Below, one piece after another: positions 408-26,502 of a stretch of 35,766 nt of DNA. Position 1 is the stretch's first letter, and every line of letters starts with the position of its first letter. The notes below the pieces were generated by a model. The model searched no databases and was not told where the DNA came from. It saw only the letters and a program-made list of their open reading frames with translations. The stretch comes from an uncultured delta proteobacterium (GTDB taxonomy: Bacteria > Myxococcota_A > Polyangia > Polyangiales > Polyangiaceae). The position numbers were made by a program, and so were the translations under genes. The stretch covers positions 1-35,766 of the forward strand of contig CAIVJW010000363.1 of assembly GCA_903906315.1 (NCBI GenBank), in the 5' to 3' direction.

Positions 408-1502
408 GTGGCTGCTCGCGCCTCCCTCGTGGGCCTCTCGCTGTGCGCGACGATCGCGGTCGCGGCGCAGGCGCAGGCGGACGGCGCGCGCGTGGTCCTC
501 GTCGGCCTCGGCGCCGATCCGACGGTCGTTCGCATGCGGCAGGAGCTCGGAGTCATCGGCTTCGAGGTCGAGCAAGTGCCGGCCGAGCGCGCGGGGCGGG
601 GGCTCGCCGCGATCGGTCGATTCCGCAAGGCCGCCGCCGTCGTGCGCGTGAGCACGACACCACCGTCGATCGCGCTCTGGTTCGACCCGGCCACGTCCGG
701 GGCCGGGGCCGGGGCCGCCCCGATGCCGGTGGAGCTCACGGTCGACGCCGAGCTGACCGGGACGAGCGACCCGGGGCTGCTCGCTCTCCGCGCAGTGGAG
801 CTCGTCCGAGGTCGCCTGCTGCCGGTCCCCGCCCCGCCTTCCGCGCCGCCGGCCCCGGCCGACGCACGTCCGATCGACGGGGGGGGCGAAGCCGCGCCGC
901 CGGCGTCGAAGATCGCGCCCGCGCCGAGCTCCGCGCCCGCTTCCGAGCCCCGGCCGGTCGCCACGCATGCTGTCGCGGGGTGGTCGCGCGACGCTTCGAT
1001 TCTCGTCGCGCCGGCGATCCTCGCGAGTCCCGGCGGTCTCCCGCCCGCGCCGGCGGTCCTCCTCGGCGGTCGAGCGCGCCTGATCGACCGCGCCGAAATC
1101 GAGGCGTTCGCGATCGTCCCCACGGTCGGTGCCTCCGCAGAAGACGCCCCCGGCAAAGCCACCCTCCGCCTCGCCGCGATCGCTTTCGGTGGCGCGGTGG
1201 AGCTCACCCCTCCGCGCGGGCGAGTGTTCGTCACGGCGGGGATCGGCGCCGGGCTGGCGCTCCTGTTCTTCGCTGGTGAAGGGACGCCGCCCTACCAGCC
1301 CGTGTCGGGCGCGCGCGCCGCGGCTCTGCCGTATGCGCACCTCGCGTCCGGCGTCGCGGTCGGCCCGCGCGTCGGGATCCGACTCGACCTGATCGCGGGG
1401 CTGTTGCGGCCCGAGCCCGTGCTCCGCGTCGCAGGCGCCGATCTGGCATCGTTCGGATCTCCCGCGGTCCTCGCGGCGGTGGGCCTCGAGGTGAGGCCGT
1501 GA
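408..1502 (+). CDS. Secreted protein with C-terminal barrel-like region
   Basis: 364 residues from GTG 408, chosen because the first residues form a signal peptide (ASLVGLSLCATIAVAAQAQA, cleavage near AQA-DG). No family is recognised. An N-terminal alpha/beta domain follows (ARVVLVGLG...; about residues 25-135), then a Pro/Ala-rich linker (about 140-195). The C-terminal part has alternating hydrophobic strands ending in VGLEVRP, as in outer-membrane beta-barrels or periplasmic proteins anchored to the outer membrane. The last codon overlaps the start of the next gene (GTGA), so the two are probably translated together and work in the same envelope process. A poor Shine-Dalgarno (GGGAAG) lies about 12 nt upstream. 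The longer open frame back to 51 is not supported, because it runs antisense to coding signal. Confidence 0.7.
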   Translation: MAARASLVGLSLCATIAVAAQAQADGARVVLVGLGADPTVVRMRQELGVIGFEVEQVPAERAGRGLAAIGRFRKAAAVVRVSTTPPSIALWFDPATSGAGAGAAPMPVELTVDAELTGTSDPGLLALRAVELVRGRLLPVPAPPSAPPAPADARPIDGGGEAAPPASKIAPAPSSAPASEPRPVATHAVAGWSRDASILVAPAILASPGGLPPAPAVLLGGRARLIDRAEIEAFAIVPTVGASAEDAPGKATLRLAAIAFGGAVELTPPRGRVFVTAGIGAGLALLFFAGEGTPPYQPVSGARAAALPYAHLASGVAVGPRVGIRLDLIAGLLRPEPVLRVAGADLASFGSPAVLAAVGLEVRP

Positions 1503-3013
1503 GCGCCGCGCCCCGCGCCTTCGTCCTCGTCGCGGTCGCGGTCGCGGTCGTGATCGCCGGGGCCTGCGGGACGACGTACCTCGATGCGGTGGTCGGCGGA
1601 GGCGCCGTGGACGCCGCGGCCCCGCCGGTGTGTCGACAGGGGCAGAGCGACTGCGGCGGCGTCTGCGCCGTGGTGCGCGAGGATCCGGCGAACTGCGGCG
1701 CGTGCGGGGCTTCGTGCGATGCGGTGCTGGTCTGCTCGCTCGGGGCGTGCGAGGAGCGCTGCGCTGGCGGGCTTGTCGCGTGTGCCCGCGCGTGCGTCGA
1801 TCTCGGATCGGACTCCGATCACTGCGGTGCGTGCGGCTCCGCCTGTGCCGAGCCGCTCACGTGCGTCGCCGGGGCGTGCGCCTGCCCCGGCGGCCGGACG
1901 CGCTGCGGGGAGGCGTGCGTGGTGCTCAGCGCGGACCCCACGAGCTGCGGCGCGTGCGGCGTCGCGTGCGGCGCTGGCATGGTCTGCAGTCAGGGGCGCT
2001 GCGCGGGCTCGTGCGCGAGCGACGAGACAGACTGTGGCGGCTCGTGCGTCGATCTCCAGACGAACGCCTCCGACTGCGGCGGCTGCGGCGCAGCTTGCTC
2101 GCCTGACGCGCATTGCGTGTCCGGTGTCTGCCAGTGCGCTGCGGGGCAGGGGAGCTGTGACGGCGCGTGCGTCGACCTCGGTCACGACCCGCGGCACTGC
2201 GGCGCGTGCGGGAATGCGTGCGGCTTCCAGGGCGTGTGCGCGTCCGGTGCGTGCCAGTCCTCGTGCGGCCCGGGCGAGACTCCGTGCGGGGGCGCGTGCG
2301 TCGACCTGCGCACGAGCAGCGCGAACTGCGGTGGTTGCGGGACTTCGTGCACGGGAGGCACCTACTGCGCGGTGGGCCAGTGCGTGTGCCCGGTCGGGGC
2401 CGAGGTTTGCTCGGGGTTCTGCGCGAACACGGCCTCGAGCTCCGCGAACTGCGGGGCGTGCGGGGCGGCCTGCGCGCCGGGGCAGGTGTGCGCCCTCGGC
2501 GTGTGCCAGGTCTCCTGTCCGGTCGGCCTCGAGCCGTGCTACGGCGGCTGCGTCGATGCCTCGGCCGACAACCTCAACTGTGGCGCCTGCGGCGTGGTGT
2601 GCTTTGGCGGGACGTCCTGCTCGGGCGGCATCTGCTCGTGCGGGGCCGCGCACACGTACTGTGAGGGCGTCTGCGTGGACGCCCAGACGAGCAACACCGA
2701 CTGCGGCTCTTGCAGCCATGTCTGCGTCGGCGGGACGACCTGCGTCGCAGGCGCCTGCGTGTGCGCCGCGGGCCTCGCTTCCTGCAGCGGCGTCTGCGTC
2801 GACGCGCTCAGCAGCAACGATCATTGCGGCTCGTGCGACCAGGTGTGCGCGGGCAAGGCCTCGTGCCAGGACGGCGCCTGCGTCTGCCCGTCGCAGTTCA
2901 CCTATTGCGAGGGTGGCGGGTGCGTCAACCTGAAGACCGACGCCGAGCACTGCGGTGCGTGCGGCGCCGCCTGTCCAGCGAAGCAGCCCTGCATCGGTGG
3001 CGTCTGCAAGTGA
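1499..3013 (+). CDS. Stig1-like cysteine-repeat lipoprotein
   Basis: 504 residues. The N-terminus is hydrophobic (VLVAVAVAVVIAGAC) with a putative lipid-attachment Cys at residue 23, so it is probably a surface or outer-membrane lipoprotein. The rest is 11 repeats of about 35-40 residues, each with a C-x-G-x-CVDL...NCGACG-x-xC core, the pattern of stigma-specific-protein (Stig1)-like repeats that are abundant in Polyangiales lipoproteins. The cysteines are likely all disulfide-bonded outside the cytoplasm. The function of these proteins is not established; surface adhesion or matrix roles are guesses. The GTG start overlaps the preceding stop codon by 4 nt, which indicates translational coupling. 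Confidence 0.85.
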   Translation: MSAAPRAFVLVAVAVAVVIAGACGTTYLDAVVGGGAVDAAAPPVCRQGQSDCGGVCAVVREDPANCGACGASCDAVLVCSLGACEERCAGGLVACARACVDLGSDSDHCGACGSACAEPLTCVAGACACPGGRTRCGEACVVLSADPTSCGACGVACGAGMVCSQGRCAGSCASDETDCGGSCVDLQTNASDCGGCGAACSPDAHCVSGVCQCAAGQGSCDGACVDLGHDPRHCGACGNACGFQGVCASGACQSSCGPGETPCGGACVDLRTSSANCGGCGTSCTGGTYCAVGQCVCPVGAEVCSGFCANTASSSANCGACGAACAPGQVCALGVCQVSCPVGLEPCYGGCVDASADNLNCGACGVVCFGGTSCSGGICSCGAAHTYCEGVCVDAQTSNTDCGSCSHVCVGGTTCVAGACVCAAGLASCSGVCVDALSSNDHCGSCDQVCAGKASCQDGACVCPSQFTYCEGGGCVNLKTDAEHCGACGAACPAKQPCIGGVCK

Positions 3014-6894: not shown

Positions 6895-6922
6895 TTGACG
6901 GACCGCCGAAACGGCCTACCCT
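6895..6922 (+). promoter_or_regulatory. Promoter for prfC
   Basis: TTGACG at 6895-6900 and TACCCT at 6917-6922 are spaced by 16 nt, a good vegetative-type promoter. Transcription would start about 6929, only some 5 nt before the GTG at 6934, so the prfC mRNA would be nearly leaderless. This agrees with the absence of any Shine-Dalgarno there, and shows that the TTG at 6895 belongs to the -35 box and is not a start codon. Confidence 0.55.
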
Positions 6923-6933
6923 CCCGCGCCGCC

Positions 6934-8523
6934 GTGCCCGACCTAGAGCTAGAACGCGAGATCGTCCGTCGCAAGACGTTCTCCATCATCTCCCACCCCG
7001 ACGCGGGCAAGACGACGCTCACGGAGAAATTCCTCCTGTACGGCGGCGCCATTCAGCTCGCCGGCGCCGTGAAGGCCAAGAAGGCGCGGTCGCACGCGGT
7101 CAGCGACTGGATGGAGATGGAGCGCGAGCGCGGCATCTCGATCGCGTCGAGCGTGCTCCAGTTCCCCTACAGGGGCAGAAACCTCAACCTCGTCGACACG
7201 CCCGGGCACGCGGACTTCAGCGAGGACACGTACCGCGCGCTCATGGCCACCGACGCGGCCATCATGTTGCTCGACAGCGCGAAGGGCGTCGAGACGCAGA
7301 CGAAGAAGCTCTTTCGCGTCTGCAAGATGCGCAAGATGCCCATCTTCACCTTCGTGAACAAGATGGATCGGCCGGGCCGCGACCCCTTCGATCTCATCGG
7401 CGAGGTCGAGGAGGTGCTCGGCATCGGCGTCTACCCCATCACGTGGCCCATCACGGTGAGCGGGCGCTTTCGGGGCGTGTACCACCGCTTGCTGCGCCAG
7501 GTGTTCCTGTTCCAGGTCGTCGCGCACGGCGCCGAGATCGCGCCGATGGACGCGCACTCGCTCGACCACGCCGAGCTCGTCTCCGCGATCGAGGAGGACG
7601 GCGCACGTCAGCTCGAGGAGGACGTCGCGCTGCTCGACGCCGCCGGCGACGCGCTCGACCCCGGCAAGTTCGCGCGCGGCGAGGTGACGCCGATGTACTT
7701 CGGCAGCGCGCTGACGAACTTCGGGCTGCCCCAGTTCCTCGACTCCTTCGTCGACCTCATGCCGCCGCCGGCGCCGCGCGTGAGCGACAAGGGCCCCATC
7801 GCCCCCGACGACCAGCGCTTCACGGCGTTCGTCTTCAAGATCCAGGCGAACATGGACCGATCGCACCGCGATCGCGTCGCGTTTCTGCGCGTGTGCTCGG
7901 GCCGCTACGAGCGCGGCATGAAGGTGCGCCACGTGCGCCTCGAGCGCGACATCCGGCTGAACAACCCGGTCCAGTTCATGGGGCAGGACCGCACGCTCGT
8001 CGAGGACGGGTTCGCGGGCGACATCATCGGCGTCTTCGACCCGGGCATCTTCCTCATCGGCGACACGCTGACGTCGGGCGTGAACCTGAAGTACGAGCCG
8101 CTCCCGCAGTTTCCACCCGAGCACTTCGCGCGCGTCGCGATGCTCGACCCGATGAAGCGCAAGCAGCTCAAGAAGGGCCTCGAGCAGCTCGGTCAGGAGG
8201 GGTCCATCCAGCTCTTCCGGCCGCCGGAGGGGCGCGAGGGCGACGCCATCGTCGGCGCCGTGGGCGAGCTGCAGTTCGAGGTGGTCAAGGCGCGCCTCGA
8301 GGCCGAGTACTCGGTCGACATCCGGTTCGATCGCCTGAGCTTCTCGCTCGCGCGCTGGGTGCAGGGCGAGGCGGTCCCGCTCGCCGAGCTCGAGGGGCAG
8401 CTCTTCGGCTACGGAGCGCTCGACGTGCACGGCAACCCGGTCGTGCTGTTCAAGGGCGAGTGGCAGCTCGAGACGTGCGCCAAGGCGTTCCCGCGGACCC
8501 AGTTCGTCGAGCTCGGCGCCTAG
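6934..8523 (+). CDS. prfC: Peptide chain release factor 3
   Basis: 529 residues from GTG 6934. RF3 is a translational GTPase that removes RF1/RF2 from the ribosome after peptide release. The GTPase motifs are all present: SHPDAGKTT (P-loop, residues 20-28), the RGIS switch segment, DTPGHADF, and NKMDRPGRD. The C-terminal RF3 domain includes NNPVQFMGQDR, GDIIGVFDPG, and VVGELQFEV-like IVGAVGELQFEVV. The length equals that of E. coli RF3, and the N-terminus (REIVRRKTFSIISHPDAGK) lines up with it, which supports GTG 6934 over TTG 6895. No operon partner; the divergent neighbour is a lipoprotein. Confidence 0.95.
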   Translation: MPDLELEREIVRRKTFSIISHPDAGKTTLTEKFLLYGGAIQLAGAVKAKKARSHAVSDWMEMERERGISIASSVLQFPYRGRNLNLVDTPGHADFSEDTYRALMATDAAIMLLDSAKGVETQTKKLFRVCKMRKMPIFTFVNKMDRPGRDPFDLIGEVEEVLGIGVYPITWPITVSGRFRGVYHRLLRQVFLFQVVAHGAEIAPMDAHSLDHAELVSAIEEDGARQLEEDVALLDAAGDALDPGKFARGEVTPMYFGSALTNFGLPQFLDSFVDLMPPPAPRVSDKGPIAPDDQRFTAFVFKIQANMDRSHRDRVAFLRVCSGRYERGMKVRHVRLERDIRLNNPVQFMGQDRTLVEDGFAGDIIGVFDPGIFLIGDTLTSGVNLKYEPLPQFPPEHFARVAMLDPMKRKQLKKGLEQLGQEGSIQLFRPPEGREGDAIVGAVGELQFEVVKARLEAEYSVDIRFDRLSFSLARWVQGEAVPLAELEGQLFGYGALDVHGNPVVLFKGEWQLETCAKAFPRTQFVELGA

Positions 8524-8920: not shown

Positions 8921-8948
8921 TTGACCCGGCGTCGCGGTTCCCTATCGA
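8921..8948 (+). promoter_or_regulatory. Promoter for the tandem lyase
   Basis: TTGACC at 8921-8926 and TATCGA at 8943-8948, spaced 16 nt, predict a transcript start near 8955 and a leader of about 50 nt. The leader carries a strong Shine-Dalgarno, AGGAG at 8992-8996, 8 nt before ATG 9005. Confidence 0.5.
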
Positions 8949-9004
8949 ACTCCGCGAAGCGGTGCGCCCGGCGACGGGCCGGCGGCCCCGCAGGAGCTCC
9001 CCCG

Positions 9005-11677
9005 ATGCCCACGCCGAAGCCGATCCACGAGCCCCACAAGATCAAGACCATCCGCCACGTGGCCTTCCCGGCCCTCGAGGAGCGCAAGCGCCACCTGATG
9101 GAGGCGCACTTCAACGTCTGGAACCTGACACCCTCACAGGTCAGCTTCGACATGGCGTCGATCGGGACCAGCGCCTTCAGCCAGGAGCAGGTCGCGGGGC
9201 AGCTCGTCGGCGATGAAGCGTACGCTGGCGCGCGCAACTTCGAGACGCTCGAGAAGGTGGTCAATCGCGTCCTCGGCCACACCTACGTGTGCCCGACGCA
9301 CAACGTGCTCGGCAGCGTGAAGCTCGTCGCCGCGACGCTCACCCCGCCCGGCACCGTCGTGCCGTCGAACGCGAACGGCCGCATCGACGTCCTCCGTCCG
9401 CGCGGCCTGACGGTGAAGGATGTCCGCGACGCGAAACAGGCGCAGTTCACGGGCAACGTCGACCTCGGCGCGCTCAAGGCGATCCTCGCCGAGGACAACG
9501 TCTCCGCGGTCAGCATGCACGCCTTCGCCGACGGCCGGTACCCGTTCAGCCTCGCGAACATCGTGGCCGTGCGCGCTGCGGTCGACCAGCGCGGCGTGCG
9601 CCTCTTGCTCGACGGCTCGCGCATCATCGAGAACGCCTGGTTCATCCAGCAGAACGAGCCGGGCCAGGCGACGCGGACGATCGCCGAGATCGTGCGGCAG
9701 ATCGTCAAGACCTCGCACGTGCTCATGCTCGACGGCGCGCAAGATCCGAAGTGCAACACCGGCGGCCTCATCAGCACCGACAACCCGGCCGACCACGAGA
9801 AGTTCGTCAGCGAGGTCGTCGCGTACGAGGGGCTCCACACGTACGGCGGCATGGCCGGCCGCACGATGGAGGTGCTGGCGCGTGGCATCGACGAGATGTG
9901 CGACGAGGCCGAGGTGCAGTGGGTCATGCATCAGACCCAGCTGTTCACCGACAAGCTTCGCGCGGCGGGCGTGCCGCTCGAGGTGGGCTGCGACGGCGCG
10001 TACCTCGTCGCCAGCGAGTTCCTGCCGCACGTGAAGGAGCACGGCCAGCACGCCCTCGCCGCCGCGCTCTACCAGACGTCCGGTGTGCGCGCGACCGTCT
10101 CCGGCATGGTTGGCCGCGACGGCGTCGTGCCGATCCAGATCCCGCGGCTCGCGATGACGACGTGGCAGCTCGACCAGATCGCCGACGCGGTGATCAACGT
10201 CTGGAAGCAGCGCGACCGCGTCGCCGGGCTCGAGCTCCAGAGCGGCGCCAAGTGGCACGACGACCTCCGCTTCCGGTCGATCTTCGCCGACCTCGAGGCC
10301 TACGAGTTCGACTGCTTCCCGTTTACCATTCACACCCTCGAGCGCATCTCCGGATCGACGCGCGAGCACCGCGAGAAGGCCATTCGCGTCGCCGGCTACA
10401 ACACCTTCCTGTTGCCTTCGGCCGACGTGACGATCGATCTCCTCACCGACTCGGGTACGTCGGCGATGAGCACGGACCAGTGGGCCGCCTACGACGCCGC
10501 GCGCGCGACGCCCGCGACGAGCGACGCGTACCACGCGTTCGTGAAGGCCATTCGTGACATCTACGGCTACGACCACGTCATCCCGACGCACCAGGGCCGG
10601 GCGGCCGAGCACATCCTCAGCCAGACGATGATCAAGCCGGGGCAGATCGTGCCCGGCAACATGTACTTCACGACGACGAAGCTCCACCAGGAGCTCGCCG
10701 GCGGCGTGTTCGTCGACATCATCGTCGACGAGGCGCACTCGCCGGAGAGCGAGTTTCCCTGGAAGGGCAACATCGACATGGCCAAGCTCAAGGCCTGCGT
10801 CGACAAGCACGGTGCGCAGAAGATCGCCTACATCTCCTTCGAGCACTCCGTGAACATGGCCGGCGGCCAGCCGGTCAGCATGGACAACATGAAGGAGGTC
10901 TACTCGTACTGCTCGCAGCACGGCATCCCCGTGCTGTTCGACGCGACGCGCGCCGTCGAGAATGCCTACATGATCCAGAAGCGCGACCCGCGCTACAAGA
11001 CCACGCGGATCCGGGACATCCTGCGCGAGATGATGATGTACGGCGACGGGTGCACCGTCTCGGGCAAGAAGGACTTCCTGATCAACATGGGGGGCTTGCT
11101 CGCGTTCAAGGACAACGCCGAGTGGGCGCGTCGCGCCGAGGACATGCTGCGCATTCAGGAGGGCGGCGTGCGCGACGGCGGCTTGCCTGCGGCCGACCTC
11201 GCGGCCATCGCGGTCGGCGTCCAGGAGATGCTCGAGGACCGCTACATCCGCACGCGCGTCGAGCAGGCGACCTACCTCGGCCGGCGCCTGCGCGACGCGG
11301 GCGTGCCGATCGTGATGCCGACGGGCAGCCACGCCGTGTTCGTCGACGTGAAGCGCTTCCTGCCTCACATCGATCAGGACGAGTACCCCGCCCAGTCGCT
11401 CGCCGCCGAGATCTACCTCGAGACCGGAGTCCGCGTGATGGAGCGCGGCAACGTCTCGAAGGGCCGCGACGCGAAGACCGGCAAGAACTACCGCCCGCAG
11501 CTCGAGCTCGTGCGGCTCACGATCCCGCGCCGCGTCTACTCCAACGACCACATGAGGGCGGTCGCCGACGGCATCATCCGCCTCTACGAGCGGCGCGCGT
11601 CCATCAAGGGGCTGCGCTTCGTCTACGAGCCCGAGAAGCTGCGCTTCTTCCAGGGCCGCTTCGCCCCGATCGAGTAG
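9005..11677 (+). CDS. Tandem fused tyrosine phenol-lyase/tryptophanase-like enzyme
   Basis: 890 residues holding two complete beta-eliminating-lyase units (about 1-430 and 431-890); normal enzymes are about 460 residues. The family cleaves Tyr or Trp to phenol or indole, pyruvate and ammonia using PLP. The C-unit has TDSGT, THQGR, YFTTT, DATR (Asp646, Arg649), the PLP motif SGKKD (Lys689), MERG with Arg814 aligned to the phenol-recognising Arg381 of tyrosine phenol-lyase, and TIPR (Arg842), so it is closer to tyrosine phenol-lyase than to tryptophanase. It lacks the DEAYAG loop (Pro503 aligns with the catalytic Tyr) and the YGG loop (Asp724). The N-unit is the reverse: DEAYAG (Tyr73) and EGLHTYGG (Tyr280) are kept, but SGKKD is DGAQD (Gln246 for the PLP Lys) and THQGR is THNVL. 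The start follows AGGAG by 8 nt. That the halves complete each other is inference. Confidence 0.9.
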   Translation: MPTPKPIHEPHKIKTIRHVAFPALEERKRHLMEAHFNVWNLTPSQVSFDMASIGTSAFSQEQVAGQLVGDEAYAGARNFETLEKVVNRVLGHTYVCPTHNVLGSVKLVAATLTPPGTVVPSNANGRIDVLRPRGLTVKDVRDAKQAQFTGNVDLGALKAILAEDNVSAVSMHAFADGRYPFSLANIVAVRAAVDQRGVRLLLDGSRIIENAWFIQQNEPGQATRTIAEIVRQIVKTSHVLMLDGAQDPKCNTGGLISTDNPADHEKFVSEVVAYEGLHTYGGMAGRTMEVLARGIDEMCDEAEVQWVMHQTQLFTDKLRAAGVPLEVGCDGAYLVASEFLPHVKEHGQHALAAALYQTSGVRATVSGMVGRDGVVPIQIPRLAMTTWQLDQIADAVINVWKQRDRVAGLELQSGAKWHDDLRFRSIFADLEAYEFDCFPFTIHTLERISGSTREHREKAIRVAGYNTFLLPSADVTIDLLTDSGTSAMSTDQWAAYDAARATPATSDAYHAFVKAIRDIYGYDHVIPTHQGRAAEHILSQTMIKPGQIVPGNMYFTTTKLHQELAGGVFVDIIVDEAHSPESEFPWKGNIDMAKLKACVDKHGAQKIAYISFEHSVNMAGGQPVSMDNMKEVYSYCSQHGIPVLFDATRAVENAYMIQKRDPRYKTTRIRDILREMMMYGDGCTVSGKKDFLINMGGLLAFKDNAEWARRAEDMLRIQEGGVRDGGLPAADLAAIAVGVQEMLEDRYIRTRVEQATYLGRRLRDAGVPIVMPTGSHAVFVDVKRFLPHIDQDEYPAQSLAAEIYLETGVRVMERGNVSKGRDAKTGKNYRPQLELVRLTIPRRVYSNDHMRAVADGIIRLYERRASIKGLRFVYEPEKLRFFQGRFAPIE

Positions 11678-11793: not shown

Positions 11794-14700
11794 TCAGGGC
11801 TGCGGCAGGCCGCCGTCGAGCGGCTGGAGGAACGTCGCCGTGAGCTGCCGCATCATGTCGAGGTTCGTGACGTACTTGCGCAGCACCGAGTCGGCGCCGG
11901 CGTGGTCCGTGTCCTTCACGGCCTTGCCGCTGGTGTCGAGGACGAGGATCGGCGCGCCGTCGGGGCCGAGCACGGGCTCGCCCTTCGCGTCGCGCTCGAC
12001 CACGTAGGCGACCGTCAGGAGCTTGTTCGCCCACTCGAGCATGCGCGCGCCGGCGCCCCGCTGGTGGACGGCGCCGAGGACGGTCTCGGTTCCCGTCGCG
12101 TGGGCGCGGTACGTCAGCCCGGACTCGGGATCGTGGAAGACGACCGTCTCGGCTTCCGGCCAGTCGGGCTTCTCGGAGGGGAGGGCCGTGATGCGCGCCT
12201 CGTTGACGAAGCCGTACGACCAGTTCGTCGGGAAGTACATCGTGCCCCAGAGCATCGCGTAGATCTGCTCGTTCCACGCGTAGTTCGGGTCGGCGAGCTT
12301 CGCCTTCGAGGGCCGCTTGGCCGGGCCCTCGAGAGCGTGCCAGTCGGGGTAGGCGAGGGTCACCTCGGGCGTGTCCGACGGGTTCGGCAGCGTCACGACC
12401 CAGGGCGCGTACGAGGCGTAGTCGCCGGTCAGGAGGCCGTTATAGAGGCGCCGCACCTGCTCGGGGTACACGGTGGCGAAGTTCACGTTCTTGTAGCGCG
12501 AGTCGGTGAAGTCGTCCTTCGAGTTCGAGACGAAGAAGTCGTACGCCTCGGCGAGGTAGTACGTCGCCCAGACCTTCTCGTAGTACGAGCCGACCTGCGA
12601 CTGGTAGTCGGACCACCAGTAGCCCTTGGAGTAGTCGAAGTCGTTGTGCAGGTACCGGCCGTCGCCGAGGCCGACGCGGAAGTCGTAGAGGTAGACCTCC
12701 GGCTGCGGGGCGGTGTCGGCGACGTGAATGGCCTCGTCGACGCCCCACGGCTGATCGCCCGCGCAGTTCGGGTCGCTGCGATCGAGGCAGTAGTAGTAGC
12801 CCGGCTCCGGTCGCGTCAGGATGCGAGCGAACAGGTCGAACGCCACCGTGCCGCTCATCGCCAGAGGCCCGTAGTAGCCGTCGGCGAGGAAGTCGGCGGT
12901 CGGATTGGCCGGGTCGCCGTCGAGCACCGCGCCGAAGGCGAAGGTCTTGGCGATCTGCTCGATCGTGTCGAGGTAGCGCGCCTGGATGCGCGCGGTCGTG
13001 TCCCAGGAGTTGAACTGCACCCGGTTGCGCCGGAACCCGTCGAGCAGGTAGCGGTGCTCGTAGGCCTGCTCGAGGAACCGCACCTGTTCGTAGGCGTCGG
13101 CGCCGGCGTCGTTCGTGAAGGACGGGACGTTGCCGGTGTCGGCGAACTCGTCGGACGAGAAGAGGTATCCCCGGCGGACTCGCCCGCTCGCGTCGACGGC
13201 CTTCGGCGCGACCGCCCACGAGAACGCCGCGTAGGCCGGGTCGGGGGCGAAGTCCTGTAAATCGCGGTAGTCGACGACGTCGATGGGGTGCTCGGCGCAC
13301 TTCGAGTCGAGGGCGGCAGCGCCCGACCCGGCGGCCTTGCAGTCGATGAGGCCGAAGCGCTGCTGGTGCGCGCTGTAGTGGTGGAACTCGTAGCCGTCGG
13401 CCGGGTCGACCGCGGGGTAGTAGTAGACGCCGAAGAGGCCTGGGCTCGAGTCGAAGGCGGTGAGCGCGTACGCCTCGGCCTTCTGGGCTCCCTTGCCCTT
13501 CACGGTGAGGCCGGGCTTCTGCCACACGTCGACGACCCCGCCGTAGCCGAAGCGGAGCGCGGCGCGGTCGTACTTGCCGGGCAGGTTCTGGTCCTGCGAC
13601 TGGTCACCGGGGTAGTCCATGACGCTGCTCGTCGCGTACTTGCCGAGGTCGCCCTCGATCTCGGCCTTGCTCAGCGGGTCGCGCCAGCGGGGCCCGACGC
13701 ACGCGGCTCCGTCCTCCGTGCCGTCCGCGCACGCCTTCGTCACGGTGCCGTTGCTCGTGCGGAGCTGCCAGTATTGCGGCTCGTAGTTGAGCGCGTCGAA
13801 CGAGGCCGCGAAGTTGTGGCGCAGGCCCATCGAGTGGCCCATCTCGTGGGCCATGACGCCCTTGTTGTACTCCTGTCGGGCCCACAGATAGACCTGCTCA
13901 CGGTGCTGCTCGACGGCCGCCCGGTCGGTCGGATCCGGGGCAGGGAAGAGCTTCCTCGCGGCCCGCGCCAAGCCGAGGAGGTTGTCCGGCTCCGGGCTCT
14001 CGACGCGGCAGGCGTGGCGCTTGGCCCGACCGACCCGGGCCGAGCGCTCCTCCAGGCGTCGCACCGCCGGGTTCATGCGGAAGAACGGCGATCCGCGCCT
14101 GCGCGCGTCCGCGCCGAGGCTCGCCGAGGGGTCGAAGCCGGCCGCCTGCGCCATCTCCGGCGAGACGAGCGTGGCCTCGAGCGCGGTGCCGCGCAGCTTC
14201 GTCATGCGCTGCATGAGCGCGGCGTTGCCGGGCCCGAGGCGGCCCTGATCGACGAGCGCCTGCACCTTGGCGCGGTGGCGCGCTTGCGGCGGCGTGCCGG
14301 GCTTCGCCGCCGGCAGGCCGCTCGCGTAGGGCGCGACGGCCTGCGGATCGAACGCGCCGCGGCGCGAGGCGACGTCCGCGGCGGTCATGGGCGCGCCACC
14401 TCGCTCCGCGGGGCCGCCGGGCTGCTGAGCGCGCACCCAGTCGGAGACGTTCTGCCCGGCGATGTAGGCGTCGGGCGCGATGTCGCCGTCGATGAGGGCG
14501 AGGAGATCGGCGAGCGTCGACGCCGCGCGGTCGAGCACCGCGCCCCATTCGTTCACGCTGCCGGCGATCTTCTCGCCCGTGAGCGGGTCCTCGGCGTCGA
14601 CCATGATGCCCCACGGCGAGCGCTGCTGCGGGGCGTCGGTGATGTTGACGAAGTTGTAGCGGAGGTCGCCGAGGCGGGCTGCGGTGCCGACGGCGCCGCA

Positions 14701-16125
14701 CGCCGCGTCGTCGCCCTTCGCGGGGTCGACCGGGTTGTGGCAGAGGACGAAGACGTTGGGCACCTCGCCTGCGCCGTTCGACCCGACCGGGGGCACGTAG
14801 TCGTCGGCCCACACCGCCGGCCAGCGGAGCTCGGCCTCGCAGCCCTCGGCGCCCGTCCGGCGGCACTCGGACATGCGGCCCGAGACGACCGCGACGCGCA
14901 GCGCGTGGTTCCAGGCGTCGAGCGCCTGCTTCGTGCCGGCGTAGAGCTCCTCCGGGAAGCCGGGGCTCACGTGCCAGGGGATCGTGCGGACCTTGCGGTC
15001 GCGGAGCGGGATCGTGCACTCGGCGCGAAACTCGTCGCACCGCGAGCCGCGTCCCACGCTCGCGCACTCGTCCTCTGTGCCGTCGCCGTCGTCGTCGCGG
15101 TGCACGTTCTTGCCGATGGGCGTCGTCTCCTTCGTGCCGCACGCGACGAGCGGCGAGGCGTGCGACCGCTCCCAGACGTTCCAGCGCGTCGCGAAGCGGT
15201 GCCACTTGTCGTCGACGACGCCGTAGCGCCGGTCGTAGCCGAAGCGGTCCGCCGTGAAGTAGCCGAACATGTCCATCTTCGTGCCGTCCCAGTCCACGGG
15301 CTCGTAGTCGTGGTCGACGACGCGCAGGTACGACTGGCGGAGCGTGAGCTCGCTCGGGTTGCAGCTCAGCGTGGGGAACTCGCCGACGAGCCAGCATGCG
15401 GGGAAGTCCCCCCACTCGGCGTCGTGGATGATCTCGGGCGAGGCGAGCGCCTTGGTGGTGACGTCGAAGTAGCCGCGGTCGAGATCGAAGCGCGGCGCGT
15501 CGGGGTGCGCCGGGTCGTTCACGTAGTAAGCGACAGGGTCGATCTTGACGCCGTAGAAGATGCCGAGCTGCGAGAGGGCGTCGAGGTCGTAGGCGTCGGT
15601 GATGAGGTTCTTCGACCAGTCGACGCGCATGTACTCGCGCTGGTTCCACGTCCGCTCCGAGTCGTTCTCGACGACGACGTTGCTCTCCTCGCCGGTCGAT
15701 GCGTTGTAGTCGCGCCGGATGTCGAAGTGCTTGTCGATGGTGTACGCGGCGACGATCTGGCCGTCGGGCGTGCGCCGCAGGCCGTGGTGATCGGTGTCGT
15801 CGACGAGCTCGTACGTCAGCCGCGCGACGAGGAGCTTCTCGGTGACCTCGAAGCGGACGCGTGCCGTGGGCTGGGCGTCGGAGCTCGTGTAGAGGCCGTC
15901 GTTGCCCGCGCCGGTCTGCGCGTCGACCACGGTGACCCGCTGGTAGAACTCCGGGTCGTCGGAGGGGTCGTCGAGCGCGCCGACGAAGAAGCTCTTCGCG
16001 AGCGCGTTCGCTTGCACCCGCGAGATCGGGGCGCGCTCGTCGGCGCAGCCGGAGGCGAAGAGCGGCAGTGAGGCGAGGACGACGGACAGCGCCGCGCGGC
16101 GCGTGAGACGGAGCGGAGAGCGCAT
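11794..16125 (-). CDS. Large metzincin-type zinc metalloprotease lipoprotein
   Basis: 1443 residues from ATG 16125. The lipoprotein signal is RRAALSVVLASLPLFASGC, with lipid Cys 27. The zinc site is HEMGHSMGLRH (His760, Glu761, His764, His770), an exact HExxHxxGxxH metzincin motif, with the Met-turn SVMDY at Met836, about 66 residues further as the clan requires. It is preceded by a helix carrying EQVYLWARQEYNKGVMA. The N-terminal 700 residues are rich in Tyr/Trp/Asp strands and Cys pairs, and the C-terminal 550 residues contain long helices (YEQVRFLEQAYEHRYLLDG). Myxobacteria make such giant outer-membrane or secreted proteases for predation; the substrate here is unknown. The open frame runs back to 16500, but only ATG 16125 places the signal peptide at the N-terminus. 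Confidence 0.85.
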   Translation of the reverse strand: MRSPLRLTRRAALSVVLASLPLFASGCADERAPISRVQANALAKSFFVGALDDPSDDPEFYQRVTVVDAQTGAGNDGLYTSSDAQPTARVRFEVTEKLLVARLTYELVDDTDHHGLRRTPDGQIVAAYTIDKHFDIRRDYNASTGEESNVVVENDSERTWNQREYMRVDWSKNLITDAYDLDALSQLGIFYGVKIDPVAYYVNDPAHPDAPRFDLDRGYFDVTTKALASPEIIHDAEWGDFPACWLVGEFPTLSCNPSELTLRQSYLRVVDHDYEPVDWDGTKMDMFGYFTADRFGYDRRYGVVDDKWHRFATRWNVWERSHASPLVACGTKETTPIGKNVHRDDDGDGTEDECASVGRGSRCDEFRAECTIPLRDRKVRTIPWHVSPGFPEELYAGTKQALDAWNHALRVAVVSGRMSECRRTGAEGCEAELRWPAVWADDYVPPVGSNGAGEVPNVFVLCHNPVDPAKGDDAACGAVGTAARLGDLRYNFVNITDAPQQRSPWGIMVDAEDPLTGEKIAGSVNEWGAVLDRAASTLADLLALIDGDIAPDAYIAGQNVSDWVRAQQPGGPAERGGAPMTAADVASRRGAFDPQAVAPYASGLPAAKPGTPPQARHRAKVQALVDQGRLGPGNAALMQRMTKLRGTALEATLVSPEMAQAAGFDPSASLGADARRRGSPFFRMNPAVRRLEERSARVGRAKRHACRVESPEPDNLLGLARAARKLFPAPDPTDRAAVEQHREQVYLWARQEYNKGVMAHEMGHSMGLRHNFAASFDALNYEPQYWQLRTSNGTVTKACADGTEDGAACVGPRWRDPLSKAEIEGDLGKYATSSVMDYPGDQSQDQNLPGKYDRAALRFGYGGVVDVWQKPGLTVKGKGAQKAEAYALTAFDSSPGLFGVYYYPAVDPADGYEFHHYSAHQQRFGLIDCKAAGSGAAALDSKCAEHPIDVVDYRDLQDFAPDPAYAAFSWAVAPKAVDASGRVRRGYLFSSDEFADTGNVPSFTNDAGADAYEQVRFLEQAYEHRYLLDGFRRNRVQFNSWDTTARIQARYLDTIEQIAKTFAFGAVLDGDPANPTADFLADGYYGPLAMSGTVAFDLFARILTRPEPGYYYCLDRSDPNCAGDQPWGVDEAIHVADTAPQPEVYLYDFRVGLGDGRYLHNDFDYSKGYWWSDYQSQVGSYYEKVWATYYLAEAYDFFVSNSKDDFTDSRYKNVNFATVYPEQVRRLYNGLLTGDYASYAPWVVTLPNPSDTPEVTLAYPDWHALEGPAKRPSKAKLADPNYAWNEQIYAMLWGTMYFPTNWSYGFVNEARITALPSEKPDWPEAETVVFHDPESGLTYRAHATGTETVLGAVHQRGAGARMLEWANKLLTVAYVVERDAKGEPVLGPDGAPILVLDTSGKAVKDTDHAGADSVLRKYVTNLDMMRQLTATFLQPLDGGLPQP

Positions 16126-16322
16126 GAGGACCTCGTCGGACGCACGGCGCGGAGGCGCGTGCGGGGCGGCCCCGCTCTTATCACGGCGACGATCGCGCGG
16201 GGCGCGGCCCGGACGTCGCGAGTCCGTCGCACTCTCGGCCCCCGGTCGCGGGTTGTGGCTCCCGTGGCGAAAGCCCCCGACGCGCGCGGCTCGCGGGGCC
16301 GCCGACGCGAAGCGCGCGGCGA

Positions 16323-16544
16323 TCAGCCCTTGGTGAGGTGGCTCGAGTCCTGCGGGAAGCCGAAGACGAGCGGATCCTTCTCCGGGTCGAAGTCGCAGAA
16401 CTTCGCGCGGCGGCCGGCTGCCACGTCCTCGGGCGAGCCGAAGCAGTACGGGCAGTCCTCGTGCTCGTCGACGGTGCGCGCCCGGTCGATGCGCGGGCAC
16501 TGGACCTTCTGCTCGCTCGGGACCGTTTCCAGTGTTCGCTTCAT
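16323..16544 (-). CDS. Small CxxC protein, conserved type
   Basis: 73 residues from ATG 16544 with a GAGAGG Shine-Dalgarno 8-10 nt upstream. It contains QCPRIDRAR, HEDCPYCFG and FCDFDPEKDPLVFGFP. The four cysteines (VQCP, DCPYC, KFCDF) suggest a single small metal site or redox pair in a short soluble protein. I recall similar short myxobacterial hypotheticals with a PYCFG motif, but no function is known. It is 197 nt upstream of the metzincin gene on the same strand, so co-transcription is possible. Confidence 0.75.
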   Translation of the reverse strand: MKRTLETVPSEQKVQCPRIDRARTVDEHEDCPYCFGSPEDVAAGRRAKFCDFDPEKDPLVFGFPQDSSHLTKG

Positions 16545-20532: not shown

Positions 20533-21183
20533 TCACGTCCTCGGGGCGACCGACACGTGCGGGTTGCCCCGCTCGAAGAACCGCCACGGGCGGCTCGCCC
20601 ACTCGCCTGCGTAGTCGACGTTGATGCGCGACGAGCGCCCCACGGCGCCGGCCCGGCCGTCCTCGAGCCACAGGCGAGATCCGCAGAGATCCTCGCCGTA
20701 CGCCGCGCCGTCGAGGCCCAGGGCCTGGCAGAGCTTGCCCGGGCCGCTGGTGAGGTTGCGGTCGCCCACGCGCGGGCCGCGTCGCGCGCGCATCGCGTCG
20801 AGCCCGAGGACCGGCTCGATGGCGCGCACCAGCACCGCGTGCGGCTCGCCGGGCTCGCCCACGACGAAGTTGAGCGCCCAGTGCATGCCGTAGAGCAGGA
20901 ACATGTAGGTGCGCCCGGGCGGGCCGTACATGACCTCCGTCCGGCGCGTGCGGCGGCCTCCCGCGCTGTGGGCCGCGAGGTCCTCGGGGCCTCGGTACGC
21001 TTCGGTCTCGACGATGCGCCCGGCGACGACGCCGTCCGGCCCAGCGTGGACGACCACCTTGCCGATGCAGGCCCGAGCCACCTCGAGGACCGGGCGCGCG
21101 AAGAACGCGCGTTGGAGGCGTGGCCCCACGATTCCGCCGGGCTCGGCAGGCATCGGGAGGTCGAGGCCGCGATCCGTCGACAT
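20533..21183 (-). CDS. mpg: 3-methyladenine DNA glycosylase (MPG/AAG family)
   Basis: 216 residues from ATG 21183. It excises alkylated purines as the first step of base-excision repair. Family signatures: LGCxL-like core (ARACIGKVVVH), the catalytic Glu in VETEAYRGPEDLAAHS, TRRTEVMYGPPGRTYMFLLYGMHWALNFVV, and SGPGKLCQALGLDG. The length is typical. It follows the response-regulator gene by 17 nt on the same strand, so the two are probably co-transcribed, which is an unusual pairing. It is closed by the terminator at 20469-20518. Confidence 0.9.
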   Translation of the reverse strand: MSTDRGLDLPMPAEPGGIVGPRLQRAFFARPVLEVARACIGKVVVHAGPDGVVAGRIVETEAYRGPEDLAAHSAGGRRTRRTEVMYGPPGRTYMFLLYGMHWALNFVVGEPGEPHAVLVRAIEPVLGLDAMRARRGPRVGDRNLTSGPGKLCQALGLDGAAYGEDLCGSRLWLEDGRAGAVGRSSRINVDYAGEWASRPWRFFERGNPHVSVAPRT

Positions 21184-21200
21184 CGCCGGGGAGCGCCGCC

Positions 21201-22667
21201 TCAGACGTCGATGCCGAGGCGCTTCAGCCGGTAGTAGAGCGTCGTGCGCTGCACGCCGAGCGATCGCGCGACCTCGGCCTTGTTGCCGCTGCAGCGGGCC
21301 AGCGCCGCGAGGAGCTCGCCCCGCTCGATGTCGTCGAGCCGCGAGTCGAGGTCGATGGGGGAGCCGGCTGCGGCGCGCGCCTCCGGTGCGCGAGGGGACG
21401 GGGGAGGGGACCCGGGCGCGGCCTCGGCGGGCGGGGCAGGGCGATCGCCGCCGAGCGCGAATTGCAGGTGCTCCGGCTGGATGACATCGCCCCGGGCGAG
21501 GATGGCGGCGCGCTCGATCACGTTCTCGAGCTCGCGCGCGTTGCCCGGCCACGCATACGACGCGAGCTTCGCCACCGCTTCGCCCGACAGCGCCGTCGCC
21601 GCGCGCGGGTTGCGGCGCGCGTACTTTTGCAGGAAGTGCTCGGCGAGCAGGCGCACGTCGCCCTGCCGCTCGCGTAGCGGCGGCAGGCGGATCGGCAGCA
21701 CGGCGAGCCGTTCGACGAGCTCTGCCTCGACCCCGGTGCGGCTCCAGGTGCCGGCGAGGCTCGGCGTCAGCGACACCACGAGGCGCGCGTCCACCCGCGT
21801 CGGCTCGGTGGCCCCGAGGCGCTCGACCTCCCCCGTCGCGAGCAGTCGCAGCAGGCGCGCCTGCAGCTGCGGCGTGATCCCGGTTGGCTCGTCGAGGTAC
21901 ACCGTGCCGCCGTGCGCGAGCTCGATCCGCCCGGCGCGATCCGCGAAGGCGCCGTCGAAGGCGCCCTTCTGCCAGCCGAAGAGCTCGCGCTCGAGCGCGT
22001 CCGCGGGGAAGGCCGCGCACGTCACCTTCACGAACGGGCGCTCTTCTCGGGGCGAACCGACGTGCACCGCGCGCGCGACGACCTCCTTCTCGCTGCCGGG
22101 CTCGCCCTCGATGAGCACGTGCGTCGACGTCGGCGCGACCTCGGCGAGGCGCATCGCGACGAGGCGCATGGCCGCGCTCTCGCCCGTGAGCTCGCCGAAG
22201 TCGAAGCTGTCGCGTTGCTCGCGCTCGAGGTAGCCCGCGTAGAGCGCGAGCTGCTCGCGCAGGCGCCGGTTCTCGCGCACGGTCGCGAAGCTCGTGATGC
22301 CCTGGCGCAGGATGACGCCGAGCTCCTTCGAGTCCCAGGGCTTCTGCACGTAGCGGTCGACCGCGCCGGAGTTCACCGCCTCGATGAGCACCGACAGGTC
22401 CGCGTACGCGGTGAGCAGCACGCCGAACGCATCCGGCCGGCGCTCCTTCACGCGCTGCAGCAGCTCGATGCCGTTCATGCCCGGCATGCGCTGATCGCTC
22501 ACGATCACGGCCGGGTCGAGCCGCTCGATCGCGGCGAGCGCGCTCTCGCCGCCGAGCGCGTAGTGCAGCGTGAACGACTTCCGGAACGCGAAACGGAACG
22601 CGTCGAGGTTGTCCTCCTCGTCGTCGACGACGAGGACGTCGAACGCCTTCCAGTCGAGCTCCTTCAT
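21201..22667 (-). CDS. Sigma-54-type response regulator with degenerate AAA+ motifs
   Basis: 488 residues from ATG 22667. The receiver domain (about 8-125) is intact: VVDDEE, phospho-acceptor Asp58 (IVSDQRMPGMNG), Thr86, Lys109 (QKP). The central AAA+ domain (about 160-395) is altered in its key loops: Walker A GEPGSEKE has Glu193 for the usual Gly before Lys194, the sigma-54-contact GAFTGA loop is GAFDGA (Asp238), and the FR-x-DLYYRL arginine-finger region reads VEAELVERL. Walker B-like VYLDE and LPPLRER remain. A Fis-type HTH closes the protein (ELLAALARCSGNKAEVARSLGVQRTTLYYRLKRL). It probably still binds DNA and receives a phosphate, but may not remodel sigma-54 polymerase. No paired histidine kinase is in the window. 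Confidence 0.9.
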   Translation of the reverse strand: MKELDWKAFDVLVVDDEEDNLDAFRFAFRKSFTLHYALGGESALAAIERLDPAVIVSDQRMPGMNGIELLQRVKERRPDAFGVLLTAYADLSVLIEAVNSGAVDRYVQKPWDSKELGVILRQGITSFATVRENRRLREQLALYAGYLEREQRDSFDFGELTGESAAMRLVAMRLAEVAPTSTHVLIEGEPGSEKEVVARAVHVGSPREERPFVKVTCAAFPADALERELFGWQKGAFDGAFADRAGRIELAHGGTVYLDEPTGITPQLQARLLRLLATGEVERLGATEPTRVDARLVVSLTPSLAGTWSRTGVEAELVERLAVLPIRLPPLRERQGDVRLLAEHFLQKYARRNPRAATALSGEAVAKLASYAWPGNARELENVIERAAILARGDVIQPEHLQFALGGDRPAPPAEAAPGSPPPSPRAPEARAAAGSPIDLDSRLDDIERGELLAALARCSGNKAEVARSLGVQRTTLYYRLKRLGIDV

Positions 22668-22900
22668 CACGGCCCCGCGGGCAGCATATCCCGTCGGGCG
22701 GCCCCGGCGCACGCGGCGTCCGGTCGACCGGTGGTCGGGGACACCGCCGTGGCGCAGCCTGCCGTGTGCTTGGGGCTTGACCCCTCCCACGGAGGGCCCC
22801 CAGAGTGTGCAACCGCTCGCCGCACCCGCGAGGTCGGGCCGTGTCACGCGCTCTCCGGCGGAGCACCCCGCCCGCCGGTCGGTTCGCTCAGGAGACCGCC

Positions 22901-25291: not shown

Positions 25292-26458
25292 CTACATCGC
25301 CGCGAGCGCGGCGTCGATGTCGTCCCACAGGTCGTCGCAGGACTCGAGGCCCACGCTCAGGCGGACGAAGCCGTCCGTGATGCCGAGGGCGGCGCGCGTC
25401 TCCGCCGGAACGGAGGCGTGGGTCATGATGGCAGGGTGCTCGGCGAGCGACTCGACGCCGCCGAGGCTCTCGGCGCACGCGAAGAGCTCGAGGTGGGCGA
25501 GGAAGCGCTTGGCCTCGTCGAGGCCGCCCGCGAGGTCGACCGAGATCATCGCCCCCGGGCCCTTCATCTGCCGGGCGGCGAGGGCGTGCCCGGGGTGGGA
25601 GGCGAGCCCGGGGTAGTGCACGCGGCGCACGCGCGGGTGCCCGACGAGCCGCTCGGCGATCACGGCGGCCGACGCCGACTGCTGGCGAACGCGGACGCCG
25701 AGGGTCTTCACGCCGCGGAGCACGAGGTAGCTGTCGAACGGGCTCGGCACCGCGCCGATCGCGTTCTGCAGGAAGGCGAGGCGGTCCGCGAGGCCGAGGT
25801 CCGAGGTCACGAGCGCGCCGCCGACCGCGTCGGAGTGGCCGTTGATGTACTTGGTCGTCGAGTGCACGACGAGGGTCGCGCCGAGATCGAGCGGGCGCTG
25901 GAGGACCGGCGTCGCGAAGGTGTTGTCGACGACGAGCACCAGGCCGGCGGCGCGCGCGATCTCGGCCATCGCCGCGATGTCGAACACCTTGAGCATCGGG
26001 TTGGTCGGCGTCTCCATCCAGATCATCTTCGTCGTCGGCCGGACCGCGGCGCGGACGACCGCGGGGTCGCTCATGTCGAGGAAGGTGAAGTCGATGCCCA
26101 TCGGCCGCATCACCTTGTCGAAGAGGCGGAACGTGCCGCCGTAGACGTCGTCGCCCGAGAGGACGTGGTCGCCGGGCCGGAGGGTGTGCATGACGGTCGC
26201 GGTGGTGGCCGAGCCGCTGGCGAAGCAGAGGCCGCGCGCGCCGCCCTCGAGCGCGGCGAGGCAGTCCTCGAGCGCCTTGCGCGTGGGGTTGCCCGTGCGC
26301 GAGTACTCGAAGCCCTTGTGGTTGCCCGGGCCGTCCTGCGCGAAGGTGCTGGCGAGGACGATGGGCGTCATGACCGCGCCGCTCGTCGGGTCGGGCTGCT
26401 GCCCGGCGTGAATGGCGAGCGTGTCGAGGGCGAGCGGCTTCTTCGAGGTGTTCGACAT
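25292..26458 (-). CDS. Cystathionine gamma-lyase-type PLP enzyme
   Basis: 388 residues from ATG 26458. The Cys/Met metabolism PLP family (fold type I) makes or breaks cystathionine: gamma-lyase gives Cys, 2-oxobutyrate and ammonia. Signatures: LAIHAGQQPDPTSGAVMTPI, EYSRTGNPTR, FASGSATTATVMH, WMETPTNPML, DNTFATP, and the PLP lysine Lys203 in HSTTKYINGHSD. The C-terminus has SLGGVESLAEHPAIMTH and FVRLSVGLES. Sequence alone does not settle lyase versus gamma-synthase; the length and SLGGVESL favour the lyase/synthase group over methionine gamma-lyase. No clear Shine-Dalgarno is seen. It is 44 nt after the kinase-like gene on the same strand and may be co-transcribed. Confidence 0.88.
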   Translation of the reverse strand: MSNTSKKPLALDTLAIHAGQQPDPTSGAVMTPIVLASTFAQDGPGNHKGFEYSRTGNPTRKALEDCLAALEGGARGLCFASGSATTATVMHTLRPGDHVLSGDDVYGGTFRLFDKVMRPMGIDFTFLDMSDPAVVRAAVRPTTKMIWMETPTNPMLKVFDIAAMAEIARAAGLVLVVDNTFATPVLQRPLDLGATLVVHSTTKYINGHSDAVGGALVTSDLGLADRLAFLQNAIGAVPSPFDSYLVLRGVKTLGVRVRQQSASAAVIAERLVGHPRVRRVHYPGLASHPGHALAARQMKGPGAMISVDLAGGLDEAKRFLAHLELFACAESLGGVESLAEHPAIMTHASVPAETRAALGITDGFVRLSVGLESCDDLWDDIDAALAAM

Positions 26459-26502
26459 GGCGCGCGGAGGCTGTCCCGGCCCGCGAGGCGCGTCAAACGG
26501 TG

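Follow-up and report, generated by a model that had tools for sequence, protein, structure and literature searches.

Tyrosine phenol-lyase (TPL, EC 4.1.99.2; C. freundii 1tpl, E. herbicola 1c7g) and tryptophanase (TnaA, EC 4.1.99.1) belong to one family of pyridoxal phosphate (PLP) enzymes, and TPL chains are single units in homo-oligomers, each with the full residue set. In E. coli tryptophanase, Tyr74 and Tyr307 reach the neighbouring subunit with their hydroxyls and hold the phosphate of its PLP; Tyr74 also forms a bond with Arg103 on the adjacent subunit, and the Y74F enzyme shows negligible activity (PMC2770544). For the P. vulgaris enzyme the proton donor is proposed to be Tyr72*, a residue contributed by the partner chain of the catalytic dimer and found 3.3-3.9 A away from C3 of the substrate analogue (PMC11301627). 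Two related halves per chain are found in the glycine decarboxylase P-protein, an unusual fold-type-I member whose PLP lysine is located in the C-terminal half (Lys754 in human; PMC7259800), and in serine palmitoyltransferase the LCB1 subunit is without the PLP lysine held by LCB2 and holds other residues predicted to be catalytic, a heterodimer with a single active site being the working hypothesis (PMC3794620). Here, a gene of an uncultured delta proteobacterium (Polyangiaceae; assembly GCA_903906315.1) was analysed within a window of 35,766 nucleotides, the whole stretch studied of contig CAIVJW010000363.1. The gene joins two TPL-type units in one chain and, judging from its sequence, very likely specifies an obligate pseudo-heterodimer in which every chain contains a single composite active site of the TPL type.

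The frame at 8921..11677 (+) is open, and the gene itself (9005-11677, + strand) comprises 890 codons without internal stop, starting at an ATG at 9005 near which the homologues also begin and which is preceded, 8 bases upstream, by AGGAG (8992-8996). A first, sequence-only reading of this DNA had described a single uninterrupted gene with two TPL/tryptophanase units, as is borne out by the open frame and by the matches of both halves to TIGR02618 and NF009709. Both halves were aligned to C. freundii TPL and E. coli TnaA for residue numbering, and all the catalytic residue numbers given in that reading proved correct. The N-unit retains Glu71, Tyr73, Leu277 and Tyr280 (TPL 69, 71, 288 and 291; Tyr73 is TnaA Tyr74 and Tyr280 is TnaA Tyr307) and has, as called earlier, Gln246 in place of the PLP lysine (TPL Lys257, TnaA Lys270) and THNVL in place of THQGR, together with Asp243 for Ser254 and Pro376 for Arg404. 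The C-unit carries Lys689, Arg532, Thr556, Asp646, Arg649, Ser686, Met812, Arg814, Arg837 and Phe881, and has Ala501, Pro503, Gly721 and Asp724 in place of TPL Glu69, Tyr71, Met288 and Tyr291; the earlier equivalences of Pro503 with Tyr71, Asp724 with Tyr291, Lys689 with Lys257, Arg532 with Arg100 and Arg814 with Arg381 all hold. Losses that had not been listed before are those of Gln98, Phe123, Thr124, Asn185, Ser254 and Arg404 in the N-unit and of Glu69 and residue 288 in the C-unit. A loss of Phe448 from the N-unit is not claimed, as this position is alignment-dependent (absent in one alignment, F or Y in another). Tyr71, Met/Leu288 and Tyr291 consequently do not share a unit with Lys257, all three being located in the N-unit.

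By alignment, E. coli Tyr74, Tyr307 and Arg103 map to TPL Tyr71, Tyr291 and Arg100, and P. vulgaris Tyr72 is assumed from homology to be TPL Tyr71. We take TPL Glu69 to be part of a cation site across the same interface. The loops that the N-unit has retained are those that cross to the partner in this family. The residues acting in trans are therefore located in the N-unit, those acting in cis in the C-unit. The earlier assumption that the loop with the catalytic Tyr is supplied by the partner subunit agrees with the published tryptophanase structures (PMC2770544, PMC11301627).

The chain belongs to the beta-eliminating lyases of Pfam PF01212 (311.9 bits against a gathering threshold of 27, in two stretches). 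NF009709, a family named tryptophanase but broad (cut-off 285), is passed by the whole chain with 834.5 bits (C-unit 561.2, N-unit 278.1); it is also passed by the TPL-type single gene L046 (632.4) and therefore does not separate TPL from tryptophanase. On the TPL equivalog TIGR02618 (cut-off 720.7) the whole chain scored 869.4 bits, the C-unit alone 628.0 and the N-unit alone 247.5. As neither half reaches the cut-off, the pass of the whole chain is the sum of two sub-threshold halves, and automatic annotation relying on such summed domains could hide the fusion. The tryptophanase equivalogs TIGR02617 and NF053783 gave 610.9 and 659.4 bits for the whole chain, below their cut-offs of 825.8 and 750, and the glycine decarboxylase P-protein family was absent among the matches in Pfam and NCBIfam scans of the chain. 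The C-unit aligns along its length with solved TPL structures (for example 1c7g, 537.7 bits), is 51-53% identical to TPL with the same fold and shares its PLP, carboxylate and phenol-pocket residues. Unlike in TPL, the residue set is here split over two fused and diverged units, one PLP site being without its lysine.

Relatives were collected by a scan of genome contigs, which confirmed 223, and the best 80 of these 223, all labelled metagenome-assembled genomes (MAG), were used. Among these and the loci of the window's own genome, 43 of 82 loci (window included) have an N-type and a C-type unit in one frame; L040 and L044 are C-type units truncated by contig ends. The fused genes among the best 80 are labelled Acidobacteriota, Planctomycetota, Gemmatimonadota, Myxococcota, Desulfobulbaceae, Bacteroidota, Bdellovibrio and Eisenbacteria. 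With six additional fused loci from a profile search of the window's phylum and three from searches of two other phyla, a total of 52 non-identical fused genes was reached, window included; at N-unit identity thresholds of 90% and 80% these fall into 49 and 40 clusters, respectively. Residues were counted in 49 N-units, 51 C-units and 42 single genes sorted as TPL-type by Arg381. Glu69, Tyr71, Leu288 and Tyr291 are each present in 49/49 N-units and Lys257 in none. Among C-units with letters at the position, Lys257 and Arg217 are found in 49/49, Arg100 and Thr124 in 51/51, Arg381 and Arg404 in 44/44 each, Tyr71 in 0/50 and Tyr291 in 0/48, and the single TPL-type genes keep Tyr71, Tyr291, Arg100 and Lys257 in 42/42. 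The split has exceptions: Glu69 remains in four C-units, and of the N-units four keep Gly99 and one each Arg100, Thr124 and Asn185. When Tyr71, Tyr291 and Lys257 were scored in each half as a six-residue rule, the rule was satisfied in 46 of the 49 genes and in the three further ones, that is in 49/49 scorable of the 52 fused genes, L032, L035 and L039 standing outside the count with C-units cut by contig ends. The database check proposed in the earlier reading has thus returned 51 further, non-identical fused genes, with the complementary losses of the window gene repeated in all 48 that are scorable.

A second analysis was carried out without preselected residues, on the 175 positions conserved in at least 95% of the single TPL-type genes. 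Fourteen of them are kept in the N-unit and lost in the C-unit, and 12 of these 14 fall in loops 67-73 and 283-300, which hold only 19 of the 175 positions (hypergeometric p 3.6e-12). The reverse pattern was observed at 55 positions, PLP and substrate residues included, four of which (446-449) share the alignment doubt of Phe448. Six positions are lost in both halves, where 10.3 were expected (p 0.046). The 14 positions had already been viewed when the loop limits were set, and both p values assume independent positions, which is only roughly so. In addition, N-unit position 124 and C-unit position 291 combine R with D in 26/49 fused genes, a pairing that suggests a contact, though it is confounded by descent.

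In a tree of 23 fused genes, N-units and C-units formed separate clades (each 100/100) with nearly mirrored branching orders, L033 being placed differently. A tree with the N- and C-units as sisters was not rejected (approximately unbiased test, p 0.361), so that duplication, fusion and complementary loss would be the simplest history. The longest end branches amount to 1.2-1.3 changes per column in N-units versus 0.5 in C-units, and therefore the N-units have diverged faster. Both halves are under purifying selection: the pairwise ratio of nonsynonymous to synonymous change (w) was 0.024-0.377 in both halves of nine of the 11 pairs tried, the other two pairs being without a synonymous distance (dS).

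N-profile matches of at least 450 bits were obtained in 10/282 genomes of the window's phylum, 6/297 of the phylum of L025 (labelled Acidobacteriota) and 8/298 of that of L007 (labelled Gemmatimonadota), the seed genome being included each time. All 24 lie in frames of 749-1377 amino acids, and the C-unit is present in the 22/22 sequences retrieved. Stand-alone N-type units or two-gene forms were not recognised in these 877 genomes, where the two larger scans list only E <=1e-105 and a very diverged lone N-unit could be missed. Weaker N-profile matches were taken as single genes, and 7/7 sampled from the window-phylum search keep the full residue set. Adjacent gene pairs (L054-L056, L062, L068-L071, L077 and L082) were considered as split partners and rejected, their key residues being kept where letters exist; each pair combines one gene of tryptophanase type with one of TPL type, although in L068 the second is known from a short piece only. 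Such neighbouring single genes, seen in several phyla, are arranged in tandem in L055, L077 and L082 and divergently in L054, L062 and L069-L071. Near relatives carry the fused gene in 3/59 genomes, own genome included, and the latter also has a separate tryptophanase-type single gene (L002).

Tryptophanase and TPL are set apart at five positions, 124, 288, 379, 381 and 448 (PMC5805759). At 124, 379, 381 and 448 the C-unit carries the residues Thr, Met, Arg and Phe, as in TPL-type members, and the fifth position (288) is supplied by the N-unit as Leu, as in 40/42 single TPL-type genes; Thr556, Arg814 and Phe881 stand where the tryptophanase fingerprint has Asp137, Ile396 and His463. From this TPL-type fingerprint, split 4+1 between the halves, we infer that the substrate is tyrosine or a close analogue. 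A comparison of flanks in 43 loci (upstream flanks of 0 to about 9 kb) disclosed no operon pointing to a substrate. The only recurring flank gene is a divergent AsnC/Lrp-type regulator directly upstream in 4/43 loci (L010, L025, L026 and L031; Pfam match confirmed in L026, partial gene in L010), a neighbour fitting for an amino-acid catabolic gene. In the window, a peptide chain release factor 3 gene lies just upstream (6895-8523, +), and such a neighbour does not recur in the flank comparison.

A composite site with a main substrate other than tyrosine, such as a substituted tyrosine or another amino acid with a beta-leaving group, is a tentative possibility, in line with the Leu at position 288, which is Met in C. 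freundii TPL, and with flanks that contain no substrate-indicating operon. We are not aware that any TPL-type relative in these phyla has been assayed, no dedicated search having been made, which also counts in its favour. It is opposed by the conservation of Thr124, Met379, Arg381 and Phe448 in the C-units with letters, these being positions that distinguish TPL from tryptophanase in the source cited above (PMC5805759).

Structure prediction of the full chain was performed twice. The first model, from 36 fused sequences, had a mean predicted local distance difference test (pLDDT) value of 83.0 and a predicted template modelling (pTM) score of 0.78; the second, from 66 sequences including single genes informing the C-half, reached pLDDT 91.7 and pTM 0.90 in the best of five. 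The predicted C-unit superposes on TPL structures with Z 56.9-59.0 and a root-mean-square deviation of 0.9-1.6 A over 448-455 residues (13 best TPL rows), and the high pTM supports a defined packing of the predicted N- and C-units. The loop geometry of the first, poorer model, in which residues 36-37 of TPL and residue 38 of a tryptophanase superposed on residue 75 of the N-unit, was not relied on, because residues 69-78 and 449-487 have pLDDT <50 in that model and, in the better one, the rows matching TPL start only with the C-unit.

It is rather doubtful that the composite site lies between chains, with the fusion joining subunits over the non-catalytic interface or through a swapped arm and two chains forming a pseudo-tetramer with N-C' catalytic pairs. 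Such an arrangement would draw on the second, non-catalytic interface of tryptophanase, which includes N-terminal strands (PMC2770544), and on the poor definition of the N-terminal arm of the C-unit (residues 449-487) in the first model. That arm is better defined in the better model (pTM 0.90), though a single-chain prediction cannot show how chains pair.

That the N-unit is a structural or regulatory pseudo-enzyme only, the C-units pairing mutually and reacting without Tyr71 or Tyr291, is very improbable. Pseudo-enzyme lobes are common, and this explanation would account for the retention of Asp214 and mostly Arg217 in the N-units as well as for their new invariant residues in the old site, Asn98, Ser216 and Asp254. 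The longest invariant runs of the N-unit are, however, the partner-reaching loops, and a C-C pair would be without both phosphate tyrosines, when the Y74F tryptophanase is already nearly inactive (PMC2770544). The chance of a misassembly or a decaying duplicate is practically nil in spite of a fragmented assembly (455 contigs) and of MAG labels on all of the best 80 of 223 relatives, since a single open frame spans both units in 42 other loci of that set and in nine more, w is <0.4 in both halves of nine scored pairs, and the 51 other fused loci, 48/48 scorable with the same pattern, exclude chance or an assembly artefact.

Several points nevertheless weigh against the obligate pseudo-heterodimer. 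The old site of the N-unit keeps Asp203 and Arg206 (TPL Asp214 and Arg217), which are retained in 48/49 and 41/49 N-units respectively, and therefore it is not wholly erased. The fused genes probably share one origin, hence the 49 genes are not 49 independent events. The isolated C-unit falls below the TPL equivalog cut-off (628.0 vs 720.7), the other four models of the second prediction have mean pLDDT of 78.0-87.6, the N-unit loops belong to the less confidently predicted regions of the best model (block means 70-84), and pTM is an indirect sign of N-C packing in a predicted chain. Moreover, the tryptophanase tetramer also has a non-catalytic interface which the fusion could bridge (PMC2770544). 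The pseudo-heterodimer with complementing halves, as first proposed, is nonetheless supported by the rule found in 49/49 scorable genes and by loops that cross to the PLP of the partner; with it we infer the pairing of N- and C-units through the catalytic interface, the activity, tyrosine as substrate and the choice of pairing within rather than between chains.

In the mechanism proposed for this pseudo-heterodimer, the two subunits of an ancestral catalytic dimer would have been fused and then specialised into a TPL-type beta-eliminating lyase. The C-unit would bind PLP on Lys689 and hold the phosphate cup and the substrate-carboxylate residue Arg837, presumably in the role that TPL Arg404 has in substrate carboxylate binding, with Thr556, Met812, Arg814 and Phe881 forming the phenol pocket. 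The N-unit, without its own PLP lysine and phosphate cup, would donate two loops in trans that complete the C-unit site. These would bring in Tyr73 as acid and phosphate ligand, along with Leu277, Tyr280 and probably the cation-site residue Glu71. A chain would thus hold a single composite active site, not two, and would probably cleave tyrosine, or a closely related amino acid with a para-hydroxyphenyl group, by beta-elimination into phenol, pyruvate and ammonia.

Table 1. Coordinates of the fused lyase gene and its parts in the window (residue equivalents in TPL numbering).
Feature	Position	Strand	Observation
Fused two-unit TPL-type gene	9005..11677	+	890 aa, one open frame
AGGAG, probable ribosome-binding site	8992..8996	+	judged by its spacing
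N-unit, residues 1-431, putative partner-donor half without PLP lysine	9005..10297	+	NF009709 278.1 bits, TIGR02618 247.5 bits, both below cut-offs
C-unit, residues 432-890, predicted PLP-binding half	10298..11674	+	TIGR02618 628.0 bits alone; about 52% identity to C. freundii TPL
N-unit GDEAYAG loop, residues 69-75; Glu71, Tyr73 = Glu69, Tyr71	9209..9229	+	E69, Y71 in 49/49 N-units and 3/3 more
N-unit THNVL replacing THQGR; Gln98, Gly99, Arg100 lost	9296..9310	+	Asn98 49/49; R100 1/49; G99 4/49
N-unit DGAQ replacing SGKK; Ser254 to Asp243, Lys257 to Gln246	9731..9742	+	Asp254 49/49; Lys257 0/49
N-unit EGLHTYGGM loop, residues 275-283; Leu277, Tyr280 = 288, 291	9827..9853	+	L288, Y291 in 49/49 and 3/3 more
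C-unit Pro503 at Tyr71 position	10511..10513	+	Tyr in 0/50 C-units with letters
C-unit THQGR; Arg532 = Arg100	10586..10600	+	Arg100 in 51/51 C-units
C-unit Thr556 = Thr124	10670..10672	+	51/51
C-unit SGKKD; Lys689 = PLP Lys257	11060..11074	+	49/49 with letters
C-unit Gly721..Asp724 at Met288..Tyr291 position	11165..11176	+	Tyr291 in 0/48 C-units with letters
C-unit MER; Met812, Arg814 = Met379, Arg381	11438..11446	+	44/44 with letters
C-unit Arg837 = Arg404	11513..11515	+	44/44 C-units with letters; Pro in 45/49 N-units
C-unit Phe881 = Phe448	11645..11647	+	44/44 with letters

Elsewhere in the window, a 504-aa frame at 1499-3010 (+) has eight matches to the STIG1-like family (Pfam PF04885), described as stigma-specific and found here in a bacterial genome. 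A 1568-aa frame at 11794-16500 (-), convergent to the lyase gene, has a short Met-zincin (DUF4953) match, and a 777-aa frame at 20533-22866 (-), with a putative start, bears a Methylpurine-DNA glycosylase domain at its C-terminal end. The gene at 25292-27046 (-) encodes a Cys/Met metabolism PLP-dependent enzyme, a second PLP enzyme in this stretch. Promoter and Rfam scans gave nothing of use.

Compared with tryptophanase, whose Tyr74 and Tyr307 reach the neighbour's PLP (PMC2770544) as proposed here for the N-unit loops, the fused lyase is of the same family but is without the Asp137/Ile396/His463 fingerprint, the C-unit having Thr, Arg and Phe. It shares with the P-protein the architecture of fused halves with the PLP lysine in the C-terminal half only (49/49 C-units with letters, 0/49 N-units), and differs in family and reaction; unfused alpha-beta forms of the P-protein are known, whereas none were recognised for the lyase in the 877 genomes. 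LCB1 and LCB2 are, unlike the fused lyase, separate and membrane-bound chains of a different family. The best reading of these likenesses is analogy to, rather than homology with, the glycine decarboxylase P-protein, and the fused lyase probably works like the P-protein and LCB1/LCB2 while belonging to the TPL/tryptophanase family. Among the literature matches listed, none described a TPL that is fused, tandem or a pseudo-heterodimer, the search covering neither subscription papers nor UniProt.

A bolder reading, improbable at present, is that of a second, independently evolved fused fold-type-I pseudo-heterodimer beside the P-protein, in which one half would serve catalysis as a donor and have its own PLP site actively closed; if true, the invariant Asp254 and Asn98 of the former phosphate cup would either exclude PLP or form a new ligand or regulatory site controlling the single live site. 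Taken together, the obligate pseudo-heterodimer would represent a natural separation experiment, in which the in-cis and in-trans residues of a fold-type-I active site have been sorted by evolution onto two units and can be read from the genes. It would be the second case, besides the P-protein, of a fused fold-type-I heterodimer. It would provide a clean way to tell which residues work from the far side of the subunit interface, and its single chain would be a scaffold on which either half of a lyase site could be altered independently of the other.

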